Virus record (IMG/VR): IMGVR_UViG_3300042864_000095
Location: 1-30,422 of that record
DNA from: a virus
Strand: one strand, 5' to 3'
DNA length: 30,422 bases
The notes beneath the pieces are model-generated. The model saw only the letters and a program-made list of their open reading frames with translations, had not been told where the DNA came from and ran no database searches. The position numbers and the translations under genes were made by a program. Shown in pieces: positions 75 through 9,347 of the stretch; within the stretch, counting starts at the first letter, position 1; the number at the start of each line of letters is the position of its first letter.

Positions 75-809
75 ATGAATACTTGGCTAACAAAAGATAG
101 ATCAGAAACAGACTCAAATAGAATGCCTTCCAGGGTAACTTCTAGCGGTATCGTGGTAACAAATCCAGCATTAGGCATTAATGTTTATAATAATGCTATT
201 AGCGAATCCCTGTGTGATTTTATTATTAGTACATTAGAAGATAACCTTAACGGTCAGACCAGGTATACTTGGCAGGGAGCTAGGGTAACAGAGGCTGATG
301 ATGTACTAGAAGAGGCTAGGAAGTGCCTAGACTTTAAGGTAAGTTCTCAAAATCTTGGTCCTAAAGATAGCGACAATGCAAAGCTATACGAAATGCACGA
401 ACTAGCATTCAGATCAATTCAGCCAAATGTTGATGACTATGGTCGTTATTGGGGAGTTGGAGTTAACTTCTTTGAGGCATTTAACTTTGTAAAGTATGAT
501 GGTGCAGGAACTCACTTTAAGGTACATGCTGACCACGGCCCAGCATATGTAACTACTATTTCTGTAGTAGCATATATCAATGATGACTATGAGGGCGGAG
601 AGTTGTACTTCCCAAGATTTAATCTAACCCTTAAGCCAAAGAAGGGCGACATCATGGTATTCCCATCAACATATATTTATGAGCATGCATCTAATGATAT
701 GATTTCTGGTACGAAGTATGCCATCGTTATTATGACTGATTACAACGACCGTGGTGGACTAAGAAACTTTAACTATCGTCAAGAAGACATGAATAGACTA
801 ACTTATTAA
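75..809 (+). CDS. 2OG-Fe(II) dioxygenase, prolyl-4-hydroxylase type (paralog 1)
   Basis: This 244-residue protein has a double-stranded beta-helix dioxygenase core in its C-terminal half. The iron ligands are visible as H151-x-D153 and H204, and K214 is in the position that binds the 2-oxoglutarate carboxylate. The strand-turn NDDYEGGELYF at 169-179 is the signature shared with the other five copies. The family uses Fe(II), O2 and 2-oxoglutarate to hydroxylate protein side chains or small molecules; the substrate here is unknown. The N-terminal ~100 residues are less conserved. The start is the ATG seven bases after a -10 box with no Shine-Dalgarno, so it is probably translated leaderless. 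It heads the island and is followed after 10 bases by paralog 2. Confidence 0.9.
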   Translation: MNTWLTKDRSETDSNRMPSRVTSSGIVVTNPALGINVYNNAISESLCDFIISTLEDNLNGQTRYTWQGARVTEADDVLEEARKCLDFKVSSQNLGPKDSDNAKLYEMHELAFRSIQPNVDDYGRYWGVGVNFFEAFNFVKYDGAGTHFKVHADHGPAYVTTISVVAYINDDYEGGELYFPRFNLTLKPKKGDIMVFPSTYIYEHASNDMISGTKYAIVIMTDYNDRGGLRNFNYRQEDMNRLTY

Positions 810-819
810 GGAGAATTTA

Positions 820-1524
820 ATGTCTGATCAAGAAGATCTAAATAAAAGAATTCAAGATTTTTACAAAATAGATAAAATTACATGGTCCTCTATCGAAGAC
901 TTTGGAGATGGCATTATCGTTTATCGTGATGTTCTTCCAAAAAACATGGATATTATTAATAGACTTGAAGAAGTTTTAGACGATCCAAATAATTTTTATG
1001 AGTACCAAGAGGCTATGGTTGGCTATGGTATGAAGATTCCAGAATACCGTGACTGTAAAGATTTTAAGTATAAAAAGTCAGATATTGCTGAACACCAGGG
1101 CGAGGCAGCAGATAAGTTACGTAAGCTTTGGGACGATGTTTACTATCGTCAGCTACAGGCTGTAAAGCACTATTGCAAAATGCACAACATTGGCGAGCTC
1201 AGATATTGGGAAGCAATGAACTTTATTAAGTATGGTCCAGGACAGCACTTCCAGGAACACCACGACAACGGGTATTCCTATAACTGTGTCCTTTCCGCAG
1301 TATCTTACCCAAACGATGATTACGAGGGTGGAGAACTTTTCTTTAGGCTTCAAAACCTAAATATTAAAGCAAAGGCTGGAGACCTATATCTTTTCCCATC
1401 TAACTTTATGTATCCGCATAGGGCTATGCCAGTACACTCTGGAGTCAAGTATTCAATTGTAACAATGCTTGATTATTCCGACAAATACCACAAGCCAGAA
1501 TTTTATACGGAAACGGGTAATTAG
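820..1524 (+). CDS. 2OG-Fe(II) dioxygenase, prolyl-4-hydroxylase type (paralog 2)
   Basis: This 234-residue protein has the same fold as its upstream neighbour. Iron ligands are H147-x-D149 and H200, with K210 as the 2-oxoglutarate lysine, and NDDYEGGELFF lies at 165-175. It is most like paralog 1: both have a long N-terminal part and end shortly after a D-Y-S/N-D stretch, so the two probably arose by tandem duplication. AAGGAG at 808-813 gives a normally spaced ribosome binding site for the ATG. Its TAG stop overlaps the GTG start of the next gene by one base, which suggests translational coupling. The substrate is unknown. Confidence 0.9.
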   Translation: MSDQEDLNKRIQDFYKIDKITWSSIEDFGDGIIVYRDVLPKNMDIINRLEEVLDDPNNFYEYQEAMVGYGMKIPEYRDCKDFKYKKSDIAEHQGEAADKLRKLWDDVYYRQLQAVKHYCKMHNIGELRYWEAMNFIKYGPGQHFQEHHDNGYSYNCVLSAVSYPNDDYEGGELFFRLQNLNIKAKAGDLYLFPSNFMYPHRAMPVHSGVKYSIVTMLDYSDKYHKPEFYTETGN

Positions 1525-2234
1525 TGAAAGATATAGCTGTCTATCGACTAGGTAGCAATTCTGCAAATATAGATCAGCTACCACTTAAAAGGGATTGGAT
1601 GGACCTAACCTTTGATAGACATGCATATCAATGTTTTCCAGTTTCTTTAGCAAATCGTTTAGGTTGGTATATATCGTTTCCAGAAGATATATCTTTTATT
1701 TGGGACGGAATAAATGATTCAACTGCTGGACACGTATCAATACTATCTGGAGAAAAATATGTTCATCCAAATAGGGGGAATAGAACTATAAGTTTTAATA
1801 CTGGAGTATATTTTTCATCTAAGAAAAACGTATCACTTCTAACAATGCCAGTGCCAAATCAGTTTATAGAGGGAACACAGTGCTTCACAACCCTCTTAAG
1901 CACATCAGTTTTAGAGAATGACTTTCCAGTAGCCTGGATAGTAAATAAGCCAAATGAGGTTATCACTATTCCAGCAAACACTCCAATTGCTGCAATTCTG
2001 CCAATATCTTTAAATGATGTGCAATCTTATAATCTTAAGGTTATAGAAGGGATCCCAGAATTGTGGAAAACTCGTGAGTGGTCAGAAAGAATGGGTGATC
2101 GGGCAAAAGCCTCTGAAGCAAAAAATTCAGTAGGAGATTGGACACACTACTATCGTGATGCAGTTGATCATAATGGAGATTCTGTTGGTGAGCACGAGGC
2201 CAAGAAGATTATAATGAAAGTTATAAATGACTAA
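1524..2234 (+). CDS. DUF6065 family protein
   Basis: The 236-residue product matches my memory of DUF6065: an N-terminal R-D-W-M-D motif (24-28), then H-A-Y-Q-C-F-P and A-N-R-L-G-W (33-48), later a W-x-V/N-K-P strand and an I-P-A-N-T-P-I-A-A-I-L-P strand near 148-159. It is beta-rich with no signal peptide or membrane segment. The biochemical role of the family is not known to me. It begins with GTG overlapping the previous stop and ends overlapping the next ATG (ATGACTAA), so it is cotranslated with the oxygenases. A small-molecule or glycan-related role beside hydroxylases would be a guess. Confidence 0.72.
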   Translation: MKDIAVYRLGSNSANIDQLPLKRDWMDLTFDRHAYQCFPVSLANRLGWYISFPEDISFIWDGINDSTAGHVSILSGEKYVHPNRGNRTISFNTGVYFSSKKNVSLLTMPVPNQFIEGTQCFTTLLSTSVLENDFPVAWIVNKPNEVITIPANTPIAAILPISLNDVQSYNLKVIEGIPELWKTREWSERMGDRAKASEAKNSVGDWTHYYRDAVDHNGDSVGEHEAKKIIMKVIND

Positions 2235-2955
2235 ATCTATTAGGTTTATTTCAAATAGGTCTTGGCTAACCACAGACAGCTCATCAAAGCCAACGCCCAC
2301 TAGTAAGTCTATTCCAGTCTGGTATAAAGACGCTGACAGGTATGCAATGAGGCCAGATGGTGAGCCATGGATAGGACAAGATGGTGGTAGGGTTGTTACA
2401 TGGAAAGCTTGCCCTGCACTCTATGATATCATGACAACTGGATATGTTTATAGAACACCATGTGATATTGAGTTTTATCTTAATGATTCTGGAGTAATTT
2501 CAGTAAAAATTTTAGATGATCAGTACAAGGATTTTATTCAGGCTAGAGATCCAATGCCACAGTTTGAGATTCCTTGGGGGTACTATGAGAATCACTTTGC
2601 ATGGTGGGCAGACTGGGCAGTTGAGTTGCCTTCTGGATATAGTGCACTGTACTCACAACCATTTAACAGGTTTGACTTACCATTCTTAACTACTAGCGGA
2701 ATCATTGATAATGACAAGGTTCATTTGCCAGGAACTATGCCATTTTTTATAGCCAAGGGTTTTACTGGTGTAATTCCAGCAGGAACCCCATATGCACAAA
2801 TAGTTCCGTTTAAGCGTGAAGACTGGAAGTCGGAGATAGTGATAGAGGACCCAAAGGAACTTTATACAAAGAATATGGCAAATACCTTTAAGTATAGAAA
2901 GCCTAGTGGTGGCATATATCAGCGTGATGTTTGGGAAAGACGCAAGTACGAGTAA
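2227..2955 (+). CDS. Beta-rich DUF6065-like protein of unknown function
   Basis: This 242-residue protein is rich in aromatic residues and strands. It opens with a K-S-I-P-V-W-Y-K-D segment near residue 28. Its later half has a strand reading I-P-A-G-T-P-Y-A-Q-I-V-P, closely resembling the I-P-A-N-T-P-I-A-A-I-L-P strand of the upstream DUF6065 protein, so the two are probably distant paralogs with a jelly-roll-like fold. No catalytic signature is recognised. It starts inside the end of the previous gene (8-base overlap) and is the last gene before an internal promoter. It could be an enzyme working with the oxygenases or a virion decoration protein; the sequence does not decide. Confidence 0.6.
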   Translation: MTKSIRFISNRSWLTTDSSSKPTPTSKSIPVWYKDADRYAMRPDGEPWIGQDGGRVVTWKACPALYDIMTTGYVYRTPCDIEFYLNDSGVISVKILDDQYKDFIQARDPMPQFEIPWGYYENHFAWWADWAVELPSGYSALYSQPFNRFDLPFLTTSGIIDNDKVHLPGTMPFFIAKGFTGVIPAGTPYAQIVPFKREDWKSEIVIEDPKELYTKNMANTFKYRKPSGGIYQRDVWERRKYE

Positions 2956-2957
2956 CG

Positions 2958-2966
2958 TGCTATAAT
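2958..2966 (+). promoter_or_regulatory. Extended -10 promoter, second oxygenase operon
   Basis: TGC plus TATAAT (2961-2966) lies directly after the preceding stop codon. The ATG at 2973 follows the -10 by six bases, predicting a leaderless transcript. No -35 element or Shine-Dalgarno is present. Confidence 0.7.
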
Positions 2967-2972
2967 TAATTT

Positions 2973-3656
2973 ATGGAAAATCAATATACTAATAACCACA
3001 ACGACAACCCCGTATCAATAACACCATCTGGTTTTTTTGGCAACGGACCAGAAATGATTGGAACCCTTGAAAACTTTTTAACGGAAGAAGAGCTTCAGGC
3101 ATTAAATGGATTTATTCGCAATAATGAAGCCTGGGATGTTACTCAAACACACTACAATGAAGACGGAACTGTGATATATGATTCTGGATATTGGGACGGT
3201 CGTGTAGCAACTTATCCAACAATTAATCAAACAAGTCCTGAGACAGTACAAATGATTAGATCAATCGTTAAAAGATTGAAGGTTGAGATTGATAAGTTCT
3301 TTAATGTAAGTGCTTCTCCAACATCGCCAGCACTTGTCCGCTGGCTTCCAGGTAATTTACAGATGCCTCACGCAGACAAAGAATTGCATGAGGGAGAGAA
3401 TGCAGGAAAGCCTAATGATTTTCCTTGGTACGACATTGCTACAATTATCTATCTAAATGACGACTATGAAGGCGGAGAGCTATATTTTCCAAACCAGGGA
3501 ATCCAGTTTAAGCCGAAGCGTGGAGCTGCCTACTTCTTCCCTGGAGACATGAACTATATTCATGGCATAACTAAAATAGAGTCTGGAATCAGGTATACCT
3601 GCCCATTCTTCTGGACTATCACTGCTCACAATAATTCGGAGGTAGACAATGTCTGA
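2973..3656 (+). CDS. 2OG-Fe(II) dioxygenase, prolyl-4-hydroxylase type (paralog 3)
   Basis: The 227-residue protein has H133-x-D135 and H197 as iron ligands and R207 as the 2-oxoglutarate anchor. NDDYEGGELYF is at 162-172. Compared with paralogs 1 and 2 it has the arginine form of the co-substrate site and a P-H-A-D metal motif preceded by W-L-P-G, as in paralog 5. It starts a second transcription unit with a leaderless-type ATG. Its end overlaps the next gene by eight bases. The likely role is side-chain hydroxylation of a protein or glycan; no target is identifiable. Confidence 0.9.
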   Translation: MENQYTNNHNDNPVSITPSGFFGNGPEMIGTLENFLTEEELQALNGFIRNNEAWDVTQTHYNEDGTVIYDSGYWDGRVATYPTINQTSPETVQMIRSIVKRLKVEIDKFFNVSASPTSPALVRWLPGNLQMPHADKELHEGENAGKPNDFPWYDIATIIYLNDDYEGGELYFPNQGIQFKPKRGAAYFFPGDMNYIHGITKIESGIRYTCPFFWTITAHNNSEVDNV

Positions 3657-4374
3657 TATTGTCAATAAAGATAGTTTTATATATTATAAGGATGAACCAA
3701 TAGAAAATAGTATTCTTGGAATTAAGGATAATAGGATAGTAGAGATTCCAAGCTTTGTAAGTCCAGAAGATGCAAAAAATATGATCAACTACTTTGAGGC
3801 AAAGGCTGAGATGTGGGGAGATATTGCTTTCTACGGTTCTTCTGGCATGGGATTACAGCCAAACGACCCAATGCTTGCAGACTATAACTTACCTGGAGAT
3901 TTTTTTGATAACTTGCGTGAGCAGTTTAAGTCTCATGTAGAAGCCGTATTTGGTAGAGAGGTTAAGGCAAACACCTCTCATGCTCAGAAGTGGGATGTTG
4001 GTGGATTTGCTAACCCACATTCTGACAATTCTGATAACCACGGAGAGCCTAACGCCTTTGAAATTAACAAGTATGTTGCAATCCTATATCTAAATGGAGA
4101 TTATGAAGGTGGAGATCTTTATTTCCCAGATCACGACATCTCGTTCAAGCCAACTCCATATGCACTAATTACTTTCCCTGGTGGGGTAGAGAATATCCAT
4201 GGAGTTACAGAAATTACCTCTGGAACTAGATACACTATGGTCTCTTTCTGGGACTTTGCTGACGCAGAATATTCTGAAGAAAAGAAGACCTGGTGGGAAG
4301 AAGAGACAAAGAGAGTTAGAGATCAGCAGGCTAAGCAAAAAGAGGAGTGGTCTAAGGGCAATAAGCTTGCCTAA
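3649..4374 (+). CDS. 2OG-Fe(II) dioxygenase, prolyl-4-hydroxylase type (paralog 4)
   Basis: This 241-residue protein keeps H124-x-D126, H184 and R194. The shared turn is altered to NGDYEGGDLYF (149-159). After the core it has a highly charged, probably helical tail of about 40 residues rich in E, K and W, absent from paralogs 1-3 but echoed in paralog 5, which marks 4 and 5 as the closest pair. The tail might dock the enzyme to a partner; that is an inference. The start lies inside the previous gene and the stop is five bases before the next ATG. Confidence 0.9.
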   Translation: MSDIVNKDSFIYYKDEPIENSILGIKDNRIVEIPSFVSPEDAKNMINYFEAKAEMWGDIAFYGSSGMGLQPNDPMLADYNLPGDFFDNLREQFKSHVEAVFGREVKANTSHAQKWDVGGFANPHSDNSDNHGEPNAFEINKYVAILYLNGDYEGGDLYFPDHDISFKPTPYALITFPGGVENIHGVTEITSGTRYTMVSFWDFADAEYSEEKKTWWEEETKRVRDQQAKQKEEWSKGNKLA

Positions 4375-4379
4375 TAATT

Positions 4380-5030
4380 ATGGAAAAGATTATTCACAAA
4401 CACGATATAGTAGAGTTTCAAAACTTTTTGTCAAGCGATGAATGCCAGAAGCTTATAGAATACTATGATGCTGGAGATTCTTTGTGGCAAGAGACTTGTT
4501 TTTTTAATGCTCGTGTAATGGACCCAAATGGACCAAAGAGTCAGCTTGGTATTGAGCTATTTAATACAAACTTTTTTGAAGAGCTAAGGCAATCTCTAAA
4601 AAACATTGCTGAAGATGTTATGGGTAGACCAGTTAGAAATCTTACACTGAGTGCCCACAAATGGCTTCCAGGGGCTTATGCAGGAGACCACGCAGACAAT
4701 GCAGAGCTAGATGGAACTCCAAATGCCTGGCAAGATAATAAGCTTGTTACAATTATTTATCTTAATGATAACTATGAAGGCGGAAACCTGGCATTTAGAG
4801 ATCACAACATTTCTATTGCACCAAAGGCAGGAACGGTAATTGTATTCGATGTTGGCATTGATAATGTTCACTCAGTAACTGAGGTTACATCTGGAGAGCG
4901 TTATACGATGCTTCTATCTTGGGACTATGCAGATATAGACTATCCAGAAGGATTTCTAGAAGAACTTGCAAGATTAAAGATGGCCGAGCAGCCAAAGCAG
5001 GACGAGCAAAAGAAGCAGTGGAATTCCTAA
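4380..5030 (+). CDS. 2OG-Fe(II) dioxygenase, prolyl-4-hydroxylase type (paralog 5)
   Basis: This 216-residue protein retains H104-x-D106, H164 and R174. The turn motif has drifted to NDNYEGGNLAF (129-139), so the active-site rim differs from the other copies and the substrate may too. A K/Q/E-rich tail follows the core, as in paralog 4. There is no recognisable Shine-Dalgarno in the five-base gap, so translation probably depends on coupling. The stop codon abuts the ATG of paralog 6. Confidence 0.9.
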   Translation: MEKIIHKHDIVEFQNFLSSDECQKLIEYYDAGDSLWQETCFFNARVMDPNGPKSQLGIELFNTNFFEELRQSLKNIAEDVMGRPVRNLTLSAHKWLPGAYAGDHADNAELDGTPNAWQDNKLVTIIYLNDNYEGGNLAFRDHNISIAPKAGTVIVFDVGIDNVHSVTEVTSGERYTMLLSWDYADIDYPEGFLEELARLKMAEQPKQDEQKKQWNS

Positions 5031-5621
5031 ATGTCATCTAAGCCTGTAGTGTTTGCAGAAAAAATATTTTATTACGAGTCTGTTATTGAAGACCCAAAAG
5101 GTTTAGTAGATGCTATTGAGCTATCAAATGACGATCTGTCTGAAACCTCATTAATATCTAACTGGCATTCCTGGTCATCTAGTAATGGTTCTTATGTGTT
5201 TGGTGAAAGAAAAATCACAAATCCAGATGCCTTTATTTCAGCAGCTGAAAATGTAAAGCTTATTTTTTCACTATTGAAGGATACCCTTTTAGAATATGGC
5301 CAAGATTACGCAAATACTCTTGGGGTAAGCTTGGGATCACAAATGCCAATAAGTATAAGCAAGTATTTTACTGGAGCATCTATGGGTCCACACACAGACT
5401 CATCACCAAATCCAACAACAGAGCATATTTCTGCTGTGCTATATCTTAACGATGACTATTCTGGTGGAGAGATTGCTTTTCCAGATCAGGGCATAGTTAT
5501 TAAGCCAACTGCTGGAAGCCTAGTAATTTTCCCATCAATACCCCCATTTTTCCACGAATCTAGAGAGATTACGAGTGGAACAAAGTACATGTCGCCAGCC
5601 TTTTGGCATTTATTAGATTAG
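5031..5621 (+). CDS. 2OG-Fe(II) dioxygenase, prolyl-4-hydroxylase type (paralog 6)
   Basis: At 196 residues this is the shortest and most divergent copy. It has H121-x-D123 (in G-P-H-T-D-S), H175 and K184, with NDDYSGGEIAF at 140-150. The N-terminal half is shorter than in the other copies and starts V-F-A-E-K-I-F-Y-Y-E, a layout common in standalone phage hydroxylases. The ATG follows the previous TAA with no gap. It is the last gene of the island and directly precedes the LamG-domain virion protein, which makes that protein a natural candidate substrate, though nothing in the sequence proves it. Confidence 0.88.
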   Translation: MSSKPVVFAEKIFYYESVIEDPKGLVDAIELSNDDLSETSLISNWHSWSSSNGSYVFGERKITNPDAFISAAENVKLIFSLLKDTLLEYGQDYANTLGVSLGSQMPISISKYFTGASMGPHTDSSPNPTTEHISAVLYLNDDYSGGEIAFPDQGIVIKPTAGSLVIFPSIPPFFHESREITSGTKYMSPAFWHLLD

Positions 5622-5648: not shown

Positions 5649-8600
5649 ATGTCTAATCCATCTAATCTTTACGCAGAAAAAGTCTTTTCTGAACATCCTA
5701 TTGCCCTTTGGCCACTAGATGATTCTGCTGACTATATTTCTCTAATTTCTGAGAACCAGAGAGATATGGAATCTTGGCAGATTGATAATGGAGTAGCAGA
5801 GCTTGTAGGGGAAATTATTGACGAGCCGTTTCCTACAAGTCATGTATCTAAAATAACTGTAGACGATACTTCTGGAAGAGAGTTTTATGTAACATCTGTT
5901 AGCCCAGACATCGTTTCTTTTGATGCTTTGAGTCAGGAGCTATCGACAATAAATGTTGGTGTTTTCCTATATTCCAATACACCATATGTTTCTGGATTTG
6001 ATATTGGCTATGAATATTATGATAGCGTTAGTGGAGCTGTTATACAAGACTTAAAGTTTTTCTCTACTGAAATATATCAAAACTGGATCTTTGTATCAGA
6101 AACCTTTACGCCAGTAATACAATCATCAATGATGAGGCTCGTTGTTCGTGCCAGGTTCTACGAGGGTGACGATGCAGAAAATTATAGCTTCTTAGTAAAT
6201 GGTATATCTTTGGGTCAATGGTCCGAAGAGTTTAATTCATCGTCTTTAGGACAAGATCTTGTATCAATACCACAAGATATTTTTGGAGAGTCTGGCCTTT
6301 TTGGAATTCCAGTACAGTCATATGGTCTTCAAAATTTTGACGGGTATTATATTGTAGAAAACTATGCACTTAAAGCTAAAAATAGTGGCTTTCCTATGGT
6401 TTATGGAACTAACAATGTAACTACTATGCAGGGCGTAGGAAGCAGCAAGCCATCGCTTATTTTGCCATCGCTAGGCTTTTTGAATGAGTCTGGAAAATAC
6501 AAAGATTACACCGTTGAGTTCTGGATCAGAGCTAACTCAGATAGCGTTATTGATAAAAAGATCTTTGGTAGCATCAGAGGTACTGATGGTGTTTATGTTG
6601 GTGGACCATTTATTTCTTTTAAAGTAGGCGATAACTTTATTAAGCACTTTGTTGGTGAGTGGTATAGGCCAATGCTTGTTCAGCTCAGATACTCTTCATC
6701 ATCAATATCAATGATTATTAATGGTGAGCAGGTTGGAGAAGTCTTTATAGACGCTACTGAAATTGAGATGACAGGAACAACCTCCACTATCAATAACATT
6801 ACGGTAGATAATGACTGGATGGCGTTTTGGTCATACCAAGATGTGTCTCCAGTAGAGATAGATGCAGTTGCAATATATGGATATAAGGTACCACTTCAAG
6901 TTGCTAAAAGAAGGTTTGTTTATGGTCAAGGTGTTGAGTTTCCAGAAAATATAAACAACTCTTATAGCGGAAGCTCTGTATTCATAGACTATCCATTTTC
7001 TAAGTATTCCAAAAACTATAGCTATCCAAATATTGGTAAGTGGTCACAGGGTGCCTATGATAATTTAAGAATAAATGGAAATACCGTATCATTTCCAGAG
7101 TATAGCAATGCCTCAGCAGTTTTTAATAACAAAACTCAGGATCAGTGGCTTAATGATGTTAAACTAATTCAAAATGGAGATGCTAGCATAATTTCTCTTA
7201 AGCCAAGCTCTGCGTGGAATAATACAAACGGATATATTTATGTAAACAATTTTTCCTTATCTTCTAGCCAGGCAAAAGCTTTTTATGTTACGTGCAAAGA
7301 AGTATCATCAGTCCCATCACAAACAAAGCAAACAGTACTTTTGATAGAGGATAATGTCTTTGGATCATACTTTGAGATAGCTATATCTCAGGATAAGATA
7401 GAGTACATTCTAAAAGATGGAGATGGAATCACCATAGTAGAGTCAAAAGACAGATACTTCTTGGGAGAAGACTTTGCTATTGGTATAGATATACAAAGAT
7501 TCTCTGATTACTATGGTGAAAAGGTTGCACAGTTTTTCGGAAGACTGTCAAATATGTCTTTGTATGTAGGTGGAAGAAAAGATTTTACTCAAACATTTAC
7601 TGGACATATTTATTCTATTGGTGTATGCTCAGAAAAGAATTTGTCTGAAATACAGTCTATTTTTGGTGAGTCTGGACTGCTCTTTACTGATGAATTTATA
7701 GATGGAAACACTCTTTCTCCAACTGCAGATGCAGAGTTTTACAACACTGCTGTATACGAATTTCTTTATGATGGCGGAACTCTTGGACAATATGCTAACA
7801 GCATAATCTTCTCTCATATAGCAAGTTATCACCTATCTCTGGTAGATTCTCAAATTTCTGGATTTGGTTTGGCTGTAGGTTCAAACTCTTACTGGCAAGA
7901 TTATGTTCCTTTATCCACATTTGCTAAGTTAGTTTCTGATGCCAGGGGAGATAGCAGGCTAGACCTAGACTTCCTACAGTTTAATATTGACTACCCAGCA
8001 CCATCTATTTTTATTCAAGAACAAACAACGGGATCGTGGAGCTACGAGGAGTTGGCTTCTGAATACTCTACGCCAGTTCAAAGATCATATGAATCTCTAG
8101 ATAATCATTTGTTTACAGGGTTTGATAGCTATGAAGATTTGAAAAACAGGGCTGAAAATACTTATAAGTATGACACATCTTCTTCAATTGTAAAAACATA
8201 TGTTACGTTCCAGCTGATAGAGGATAGCCCAAATAAAAATTTAAACTCCTTTGTTAATGAAGAGAGGCCATCAAAGGACGGAATACTAAAACCAGGAGAT
8301 AACTGGCTAAATACAAAGTATGAAGTGGTAGATAATATGATTATCTATCCACCAAGCTCAGTATCTTTTGAGGACCTTGCAATAGTAACTCATATTGAAG
8401 CAAAGACCTTAAGCATTGTAGACACACCGATAGCAATTAGGAGATTAGAGTATTGCTCACTCTCACTTTCTGAAACATCTGCAACTGCTATTGGAACAAG
8501 GTTTGGAAATGACATCTATCCATATAGAAAAGACGGATTTTACTTTACATATAATCAAGATAATCCTTTTACAATTTATAAAGGTAGCACACCATATCTT

Positions 8601-9347
8601 TACATGACAAGAAACAGCGGAATAACTATAAAGGGACAGTATGACCCAATGGTAAATCGTGGAATAGCTGTTCCAATAAACCAATCAAGATCTGACAATC
8701 ACAAGGTAATTGCTATGCAAATGTCTCTCAGGTTTGATCAAGACTTTTTTCCATACGCTCCAACACAAATCTTTGAGTTGCAAAGCAAAAACTCTTATAT
8801 TAAGTTTTATATGGTTGCCACTCACCCATCTGGAAAACGTGCAAAAATCTATGCCGTTAATTCCAGGGGACAAGTAGAAAATGGCCTAGCCTTTTACTTG
8901 AATGGAAAACTAGTAAAGGATCCAACCATTACAATTAAAGAGTGGTCAACTCTTGGAATTAGGTTTGCAAATACTCAAGATTTTAATAATTATGAGGGTG
9001 CTTTACGTATAAATGGTCCACTAACGTTTAATAGCCTGTCTTACTACAAGTCTACAAATCTACAAGAAGTACAGAATGTTGTTGAAAGACCATGGTTTAA
9101 GGTAGAAAAAGCTGGAGCACTAACGCTAGATTGGAACTACTGGAACGCAATCCCATATCTTTGGGAAGAGGTATTGGTTATATCAACCACTAGCTACTAT
9201 GGAGTAGACCCATCTGATATCTATAAGGCTTATACAGGAACCAATAAAATTATCGTAGATGACTCAATAGAGACAACATTTGGTGACTATGCCTATAAGT
9301 TCTATCAAAATGTTTCATGGAAGACTAATACCTATCAAGCCGTATAG
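5649..9347 (+). CDS. Large LamG/concanavalin A-like virion protein
   Basis: The 1232-residue protein opens with H-P-I-A-L-W-P-L-D-D, the typical start of LamG-type jelly-roll modules. Three such modules can be seen: about 285-425 (Y-T-V-E-F-W-I-R followed by I-N-G-E-Q-V), about 510-670, and about 1018-1140 (F-Y-L-N-G-K-L-V). It is rich in S, N and Y, contains no signal peptide or membrane segment and ends without a peptidase or lyase motif. It probably builds a virion surface structure that binds host or environmental glycans, such as a fiber or appendage. It sits unusually upstream of the portal, away from the tail-tip genes. An AGGTGG ribosome binding site (5637-5642) supports the ATG. Confidence 0.75.
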   Translation: MSNPSNLYAEKVFSEHPIALWPLDDSADYISLISENQRDMESWQIDNGVAELVGEIIDEPFPTSHVSKITVDDTSGREFYVTSVSPDIVSFDALSQELSTINVGVFLYSNTPYVSGFDIGYEYYDSVSGAVIQDLKFFSTEIYQNWIFVSETFTPVIQSSMMRLVVRARFYEGDDAENYSFLVNGISLGQWSEEFNSSSLGQDLVSIPQDIFGESGLFGIPVQSYGLQNFDGYYIVENYALKAKNSGFPMVYGTNNVTTMQGVGSSKPSLILPSLGFLNESGKYKDYTVEFWIRANSDSVIDKKIFGSIRGTDGVYVGGPFISFKVGDNFIKHFVGEWYRPMLVQLRYSSSSISMIINGEQVGEVFIDATEIEMTGTTSTINNITVDNDWMAFWSYQDVSPVEIDAVAIYGYKVPLQVAKRRFVYGQGVEFPENINNSYSGSSVFIDYPFSKYSKNYSYPNIGKWSQGAYDNLRINGNTVSFPEYSNASAVFNNKTQDQWLNDVKLIQNGDASIISLKPSSAWNNTNGYIYVNNFSLSSSQAKAFYVTCKEVSSVPSQTKQTVLLIEDNVFGSYFEIAISQDKIEYILKDGDGITIVESKDRYFLGEDFAIGIDIQRFSDYYGEKVAQFFGRLSNMSLYVGGRKDFTQTFTGHIYSIGVCSEKNLSEIQSIFGESGLLFTDEFIDGNTLSPTADAEFYNTAVYEFLYDGGTLGQYANSIIFSHIASYHLSLVDSQISGFGLAVGSNSYWQDYVPLSTFAKLVSDARGDSRLDLDFLQFNIDYPAPSIFIQEQTTGSWSYEELASEYSTPVQRSYESLDNHLFTGFDSYEDLKNRAENTYKYDTSSSIVKTYVTFQLIEDSPNKNLNSFVNEERPSKDGILKPGDNWLNTKYEVVDNMIIYPPSSVSFEDLAIVTHIEAKTLSIVDTPIAIRRLEYCSLSLSETSATAIGTRFGNDIYPYRKDGFYFTYNQDNPFTIYKGSTPYLYMTRNSGITIKGQYDPMVNRGIAVPINQSRSDNHKVIAMQMSLRFDQDFFPYAPTQIFELQSKNSYIKFYMVATHPSGKRAKIYAVNSRGQVENGLAFYLNGKLVKDPTITIKEWSTLGIRFANTQDFNNYEGALRINGPLTFNSLSYYKSTNLQEVQNVVERPWFKVEKAGALTLDWNYWNAIPYLWEEVLVISTTSYYGVDPSDIYKAYTGTNKIIVDDSIETTFGDYAYKFYQNVSWKTNTYQAV

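Follow-up and report, generated by a model that had tools for sequence, protein, structure and literature searches.

The element described here occupies positions 75 to 5621 of a 30,422-nucleotide stretch of viral DNA (IMG/VR record IMGVR_UViG_3300042864_000095, positions 1 to 30,422; hereafter the window). Eight stop-free open reading frames, every one on the + strand, encode six 2-oxoglutarate (2OG)-Fe(II) oxygenases, named oxA to oxF, together with one DUF6065 protein and one phrog_7084 protein. The element reaches upstream beyond the window edge, into a gene for an Fn3 protein with a C-terminal Pro/Phe repeat, designated FFP. Its features are as follows.

1–14, +: 3' end (...GPF stop) of the FFP gene, whose product is the candidate substrate; window bases 1–30 are matched at the gene end in contigs L010 and L012
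28–57, +: strong, terminator-like hairpin separating the FFP gene from the enzyme operon (dG -26.5 kcal/mol, z -5.9)
38–67, +: possible promoter of the enzyme operon, overlapping the hairpin; extended -10 TGCTATAAT, with 10/12 agreement to the consensus
75–809, +: oxA, prolyl-hydroxylase-like 2OG-Fe(II) oxygenase (PF13640 E=1.6e-10; prolyl 4-hydroxylase E=3e-7; dN/dS 0.03)
820–1524, +: oxB, 2OG-Fe(II) oxygenase (PF13640 E=2.3e-13; weak prolyl 4-hydroxylase and lysyl hydroxylase matches; dN/dS 0.04)
1524–2234, +: DUF6065 protein that starts with GTG and is predicted to adopt a dUTPase-like fold (PF19541 E=1.2e-27; model pLDDT 88)
2227–2955, +: phrog_7084 protein, a distant DUF6065 relative (phrog_7084 E=8e-33; hhalign probability 89%)
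2973–3656, +: oxC, 2OG-Fe(II) oxygenase (PF13640 E=3e-7; prolyl 3-hydroxylase 1 E=4e-6)
3649–4374, +: oxD, 2OG-Fe(II) oxygenase (PF13640 E=2.5e-7; joint oxD/oxE profile against prolyl 3-hydroxylase 1 E=1.8e-12)
4380–5030, +: oxE, 2OG-Fe(II) oxygenase (PF13640 E=7e-12; joint profile with oxD)
5031–5621, +: oxF, 2OG-Fe(II) oxygenase (PF13640 E=2e-11; prolyl 4-hydroxylase E=4e-7; dN/dS 0.085)

The initial annotation had divided the island into two operons; since the gaps between its genes do not exceed 17 bp and several genes overlap, a single tight operon is the likelier arrangement. It had also counted two DUF6065-like proteins, of which Pfam calls just the one at 1524–2234, the protein at 2227–2955 being the phrog_7084 member.

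The six oxygenases

The reading of six intact, paralogous dioxygenases held up in full. All six frames exceed the curated PF13640 (2OG-FeII_Oxy_3) cut-off of 27 bits with scores of 31.6–51.3 bits, and each retains the complete HxD...H iron triad plus the R/K residue for 2OG: H151/D153/H204/K214 in oxA, H147/D149/H200/K210 in oxB, H133/D135/H197/R207 in oxC, H124/D126/H184/R194 in oxD, H104/D106/H164/R174 in oxE and H121/D123/H175/K185 in oxF. The same catalytic pattern is kept in 840 of 920 distinct relatives. Measured against the nearest relative, contig L014, the ratio of non-synonymous to synonymous substitution rates (dN/dS) lies between 0.031 and 0.085 for all six, a range that includes the portal (0.036) and the head protease, showing that every copy is under strong purifying selection. 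Pairwise identity among them is 18–41%. A tree of 72 sequences revealed six groups, each of single origin, with A, B and F split from C, D and E: the copies are ancient paralogues, retained independently of one another by many phages, and no recent duplicates. The claim of retained, diverged copies under selection is thus borne out, as six functional-looking and separately conserved enzymes.

By profile comparison, the closest solved structures for all six are prolyl 4-hydroxylase, prolyl 3-hydroxylase 1 and collagen lysyl hydroxylase. Foldseek analysis of an oxA model (pLDDT 79) returned prolyl hydroxylases as nearly all of its top 50 fold matches, including an enzyme with a bound (Ser-Pro)5 peptide and the viral vCPH. 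Judged by profile and model, the six enzymes are prolyl-hydroxylase-like, with relatives of both the 4- and the 3-hydroxylase type represented, and proline hydroxylation is their predicted activity. A resemblance of phage 2OG oxygenases to the human prolyl hydroxylase EGLN3 has been noted before (PMC12774648).

The Phe/Pro-repeat protein and its linkage to the array

The whole FFP gene is present in contigs nearly identical to the window (L010, 1794–2558, 255 aa; L012, 451–1215). In these sister contigs the gene before oxA encodes an Fn3 protein (fn3 match E=2.8e-6) ending in a repeat (PFFPPFFPPFFP...); further examples of the repeat read PFFPPFFPPFFPPSFPYFPPFFP... and PFFPPFFPPFFPPSFPYFPPFFPFFP. 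The repeat region consists of 38% Pro and 37% Phe and contains no Gly-X-Y collagen repeats, so that the tail does not qualify as collagen-like. Genes 5' of FFP in contigs L014 and L084 resemble tail fibre, Mtd_N and head-decoration or other virion proteins, which makes a position of the FFP protein at the virion surface likely. Some FFP proteins terminate in a Hint-type domain, suggesting self-cleavage after the repeat; this Hint/intein-like end (...GYLVHNK) was seen in many phages, for example at L039:1366–2640 and L110:6290–7621.

Between the FFP stop codon and oxA, long stems were found in 38 of 51 distinct loci as compared with 46 of 373 other gaps, and several of them carry a T run in the manner of intrinsic terminators. 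Given this terminator-like hairpin, one transcription unit seems to close with the FFP gene and a second to start with the enzymes. The extended -10-like sequence in the same gap is weak evidence of a promoter, since the region holds no more such matches than expected by chance.

Cassette loci were collected from IMG/VR via relatives of DUF6065 and phrog_7084. They share a recurring arrangement, oxA-oxB-DUF6065-7084-oxC plus variable extra oxygenases (up to 12 counted per locus), with a gene order that varies among lineages. A proline-rich FFP gene lies 5' of oxA in 89 of 105 loci; when the repeat motif itself was sought, four cassette loci with upstream sequence were without FFP, one of them carrying a frameshifted copy. 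A blind reverse scan, in which viral contigs were searched for DNA encoding PFFPPFFP with the oxygenases ignored, gave 48 usable contigs with at least 4 kb downstream, and oxygenases were then sought within 5 kb and DUF6065/7084 within 8 kb. Both were found near FFP in 44 of the 48, while the identical procedure applied to collagen-repeat controls yielded oxygenases in 1 of 32 and DUF6065/7084 in 0 of 32 (Fisher test, 1e-16 and 3e-18, respectively). After removal of similar FFP proteins, oxygenases were still present in 34 of 38. The nearest oxygenase was on the same strand, downstream and less than 2 kb from FFP in 175 of 209 cases. The co-occurrence of DUF6065 with dioxygenases, proposed initially as a check, is a real link that extends to phrog_7084 and recurs across IMG/VR loci.

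Looking from the phage background instead, we fetched 20 contigs by their head protease and examined them whole. Just one of these head-module relatives carries FFP, and nine 2OG genes were counted in it; FFP is missing from the remaining 19, where 2OG genes number between zero and three. Conversely, all 18 long cassette contigs (up to 154 kb) contain 2OG genes, with four or more in 16, and 13 of them gave no match to this head protease at E<=0.001, although contigs may be fragments. Since so many cassette contigs are without this head protease, the cassette seems to move between phage backgrounds together with its repeat protein. Repeat number and enzyme number are correlated (Spearman 0.50, n=76), a value that shared ancestry inflates. 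At L313:601–11655, a tandem pair of Fn3-FFP proteins precedes eleven oxygenases, DUF6065 and 7084, after which comes a short-chain dehydrogenase-like gene.

DUF6065 and phrog_7084

The protein at 1524–2234 is a member of DUF6065 (PF19541; 97.3 bits, cut-off 26.6), whereas its neighbour matches no Pfam family at E 0.1 and is connected to DUF6065 by hhalign (E=2e-6). VIA-align placed the DUF6065 model at a Z of about 11 to dUTPases over 110–123 aligned residues, with modest Foldseek scores. The two proteins seem to share a dUTPase-like fold. By eye, dUTPase catalytic motifs are not evident in the DUF6065 consensus, and that of phrog_7084 displays a partial resemblance (SGIIDND, AGTPYAQ). Sequence searches of solved structures gave no match for either protein. 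In tblastn searches of cultured phages DUF6065 had no match, nor had the FFP protein, for which low complexity was masked and the repeat itself consequently not searched. Relatives of phrog_7084 occur in haloviruses (L009:7836–8720, L008:7827–8696), beside thymidylate synthase in HSTV-2 or near ribonucleotide reductase in HF2.

The bacterial members of DUF6065 that we examined are, unlike the phage protein, without oxygenases nearby. In Sinorhizobium the gene lies directly 3' of a polyproline autotransporter gene with a tract of about 30 prolines (L234:5448–8729), and in Ochrobactrum about 0.1 kb 3' of a collagen-like gene. Across bacteria such neighbourhoods are no more than suggestive of a connection with proline, which appeared in just two of four lineages. 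DUF6065 matches in S. meliloti are often in several pieces, as if frameshifted. Tentatively, DUF6065 and phrog_7084 might bind or present Pro-rich tracts.

Proposed function, alternatives and related systems

Considering that repeat protein and enzymes co-occur across hundreds of uncultured contigs, these phages probably hydroxylate a surface protein of their own, and we consider it likely that the array is a dedicated hydroxylation line for the Pro/Phe-repeat protein. The Fn3 surface protein with its Pro/Phe tail (PFFPPFFPPFFPPSFPYFPPFFP...) would be made as the last gene product of a tail-fibre or virion-surface group; the hairpin would end that unit, and a separate operon would supply six oxygenases to hydroxylate the repeat, with the prolines or ring carbons attacked probably differing among them. 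DUF6065 and phrog_7084 would serve as dedicated partners, most likely binding or presenting the repeat, and a stiffened, hydroxylated appendage resembling a fibre would result. We infer the repeat tail as the substrate, proline as the hydroxylated residue, the virion as the location and, with low confidence, what the two dUTPase-fold proteins do. A joint virion modification system, as suggested initially, gains inferential support from the Pro-rich repeat protein directly upstream and the adjacent tail-fibre-like genes; the idea that the copies have different substrates was not shown, and a single repetitive substrate modified at several sites or by several chemistries fits better.

Several observations weigh against this interpretation. 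The window itself holds just the final codons of the FFP gene (its first 14 bases), and the virion location of the product is judged from neighbour genes alone. Four of the 48 usable FFP contigs had no oxygenase nearby, and shared ancestry among FFP contigs makes the correlation and the counts partly non-independent. Similarity of 2OG folds does not fix the substrate, so that Phe, another residue or a host protein may be modified instead. Bacterial DUF6065 genes also occur without a Pro-rich neighbour, leaving the proline link there suggestive.

An unlikely alternative, yet the strongest one, is that the oxygenases act on host targets, for instance by hydroxylating EF-Tu or by steering metabolism through consumption of 2-oxoglutarate, with FFP merely a neighbour: bacterial prolyl 4-hydroxylases that bind or modify EF-Tu are among the top fold matches (5v7y, 4iw3), FFP-less head-module relatives sometimes carry one to three 2OG genes, and a metabolic role has been proposed for cyanophages (PMC9602691, PMC3037559). 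It leaves unexplained, however, why contigs found by FFP-encoding DNA nearly all have the array and FFP-less relatives have none. Slightly less probable still is hitch-hiking, in which repeat protein and array occupy one variable tail-fibre region and are passed on together, with neither acting on the other. The presence or absence of arrays among head-module relatives, which places both in such a region, and the common ancestry of many contigs would agree with it, but the link survives among 38 dissimilar FFP proteins, in reordered cassettes and in phages without this head module, and collagen-like phage proteins show no such link. DNA or nucleotide modification, with the oxygenases oxidising bases and the dUTPase-fold proteins handling nucleotides, is very improbable. 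In its favour are weak Tet_JBP scores of three enzymes, the dUTPase-like fold of DUF6065 and the halovirus phrog_7084 genes near nucleotide-metabolism genes. Against it, the Tet_JBP scores are far under the cut-off and cover the generic core only, the solved relatives are prolyl and lysyl hydroxylases, dUTPase active-site motifs are not evident in DUF6065, and FFP linkage is left unexplained.

Hydroxylation of the phage's own repeat protein would have its closest parallels in collagen-type prolyl 4- and 3-hydroxylases (B. anthracis P4H, Chlamydomonas P4H-1, P3H1). These are the solved enzymes closest to the array in sequence and, in the case of oxA, in fold, and a repetitive Pro-rich partner is common to both. 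The phage array differs in its Phe/Pro-repeat partner without Gly-X-Y, its many enzymes, its phage encoding and its two dUTPase-fold proteins. Modification of collagen is known from giant viruses, and vCPH of chlorella virus PBCV-1 (5c5t) is, as in the array, a virus-encoded enzyme of the prolyl 4-hydroxylase fold; its setting is that of eukaryotic giant viruses, and it does not belong to an array next to an Fn3 repeat protein of the tail-fibre type.

The six copies had been called unusual; as regards copy number there is precedent, cyanophage S-SCSM1 having 24 2OG genes, scattered with one run of four (PMC9602691). It shares with the window phage the superfamily and the many copies per phage; in contrast to the tight array, its genes are mostly scattered and the role proposed for them is metabolic. 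Three stretches of S-SCSM1 (about 149 of 229 kb) contained no FFP-like partner and a (PR)n tract in a virion protein only. There, four consecutive 2OG genes adjoin tail fibre genes, the (PR)n virion protein lying elsewhere (L495:30680–35144 and L493:23462–31273). No literature was found on DUF6065 or the PFFPPFF repeat, and no paper describing the array. A dedicated array with a repetitive substrate candidate seems to be new; as a phage system it would be without precedent, and its chemistry would be a variant of the collagen/extensin type.

The 2OG oxygenases of phages rank with the most frequent auxiliary genes of unexplained role in aquatic environments, and a part in host metabolism is what they are usually credited with; a specific substrate candidate that is encoded next to them and inherited along with them opens their function to direct testing. 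Hydroxylation of a phage's own surface proteins, which the array suggests, is not known from tailed phages; the array also gives DUF6065 a context and offers compact enzymes for hydroxylated Pro-rich polymers. The wider proposal, for and against which we see about equal grounds, is that widespread aquatic phages use a multi-enzyme line and two dUTPase-fold accessories to make a hydroxyproline-rich virion appendage from an encoded Phe/Pro repeat, a counterpart of collagen and extensin maturation and a first function for DUF6065.

Beyond the array, the 30.4-kb window contains a head-tail block with portal, head protease, major capsid protein-like protein, tape measure and minor tail genes. Its head protease is 43% identical to those of Streptomyces phages of the Stanwilliamsviridae, with which (e.g., Comrade) the head-tail gene order is also common; in contrast to the window phage, the corresponding place in the Comrade annotation is devoid of oxygenase, DUF6065 and FFP genes. 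Directly 3' of the array, positions 5649–9347 encode a 1232-aa protein without Pfam or PHROG matches, which diverges faster than its neighbours, with 63% identity to contig L016 compared with 88% for the portal.

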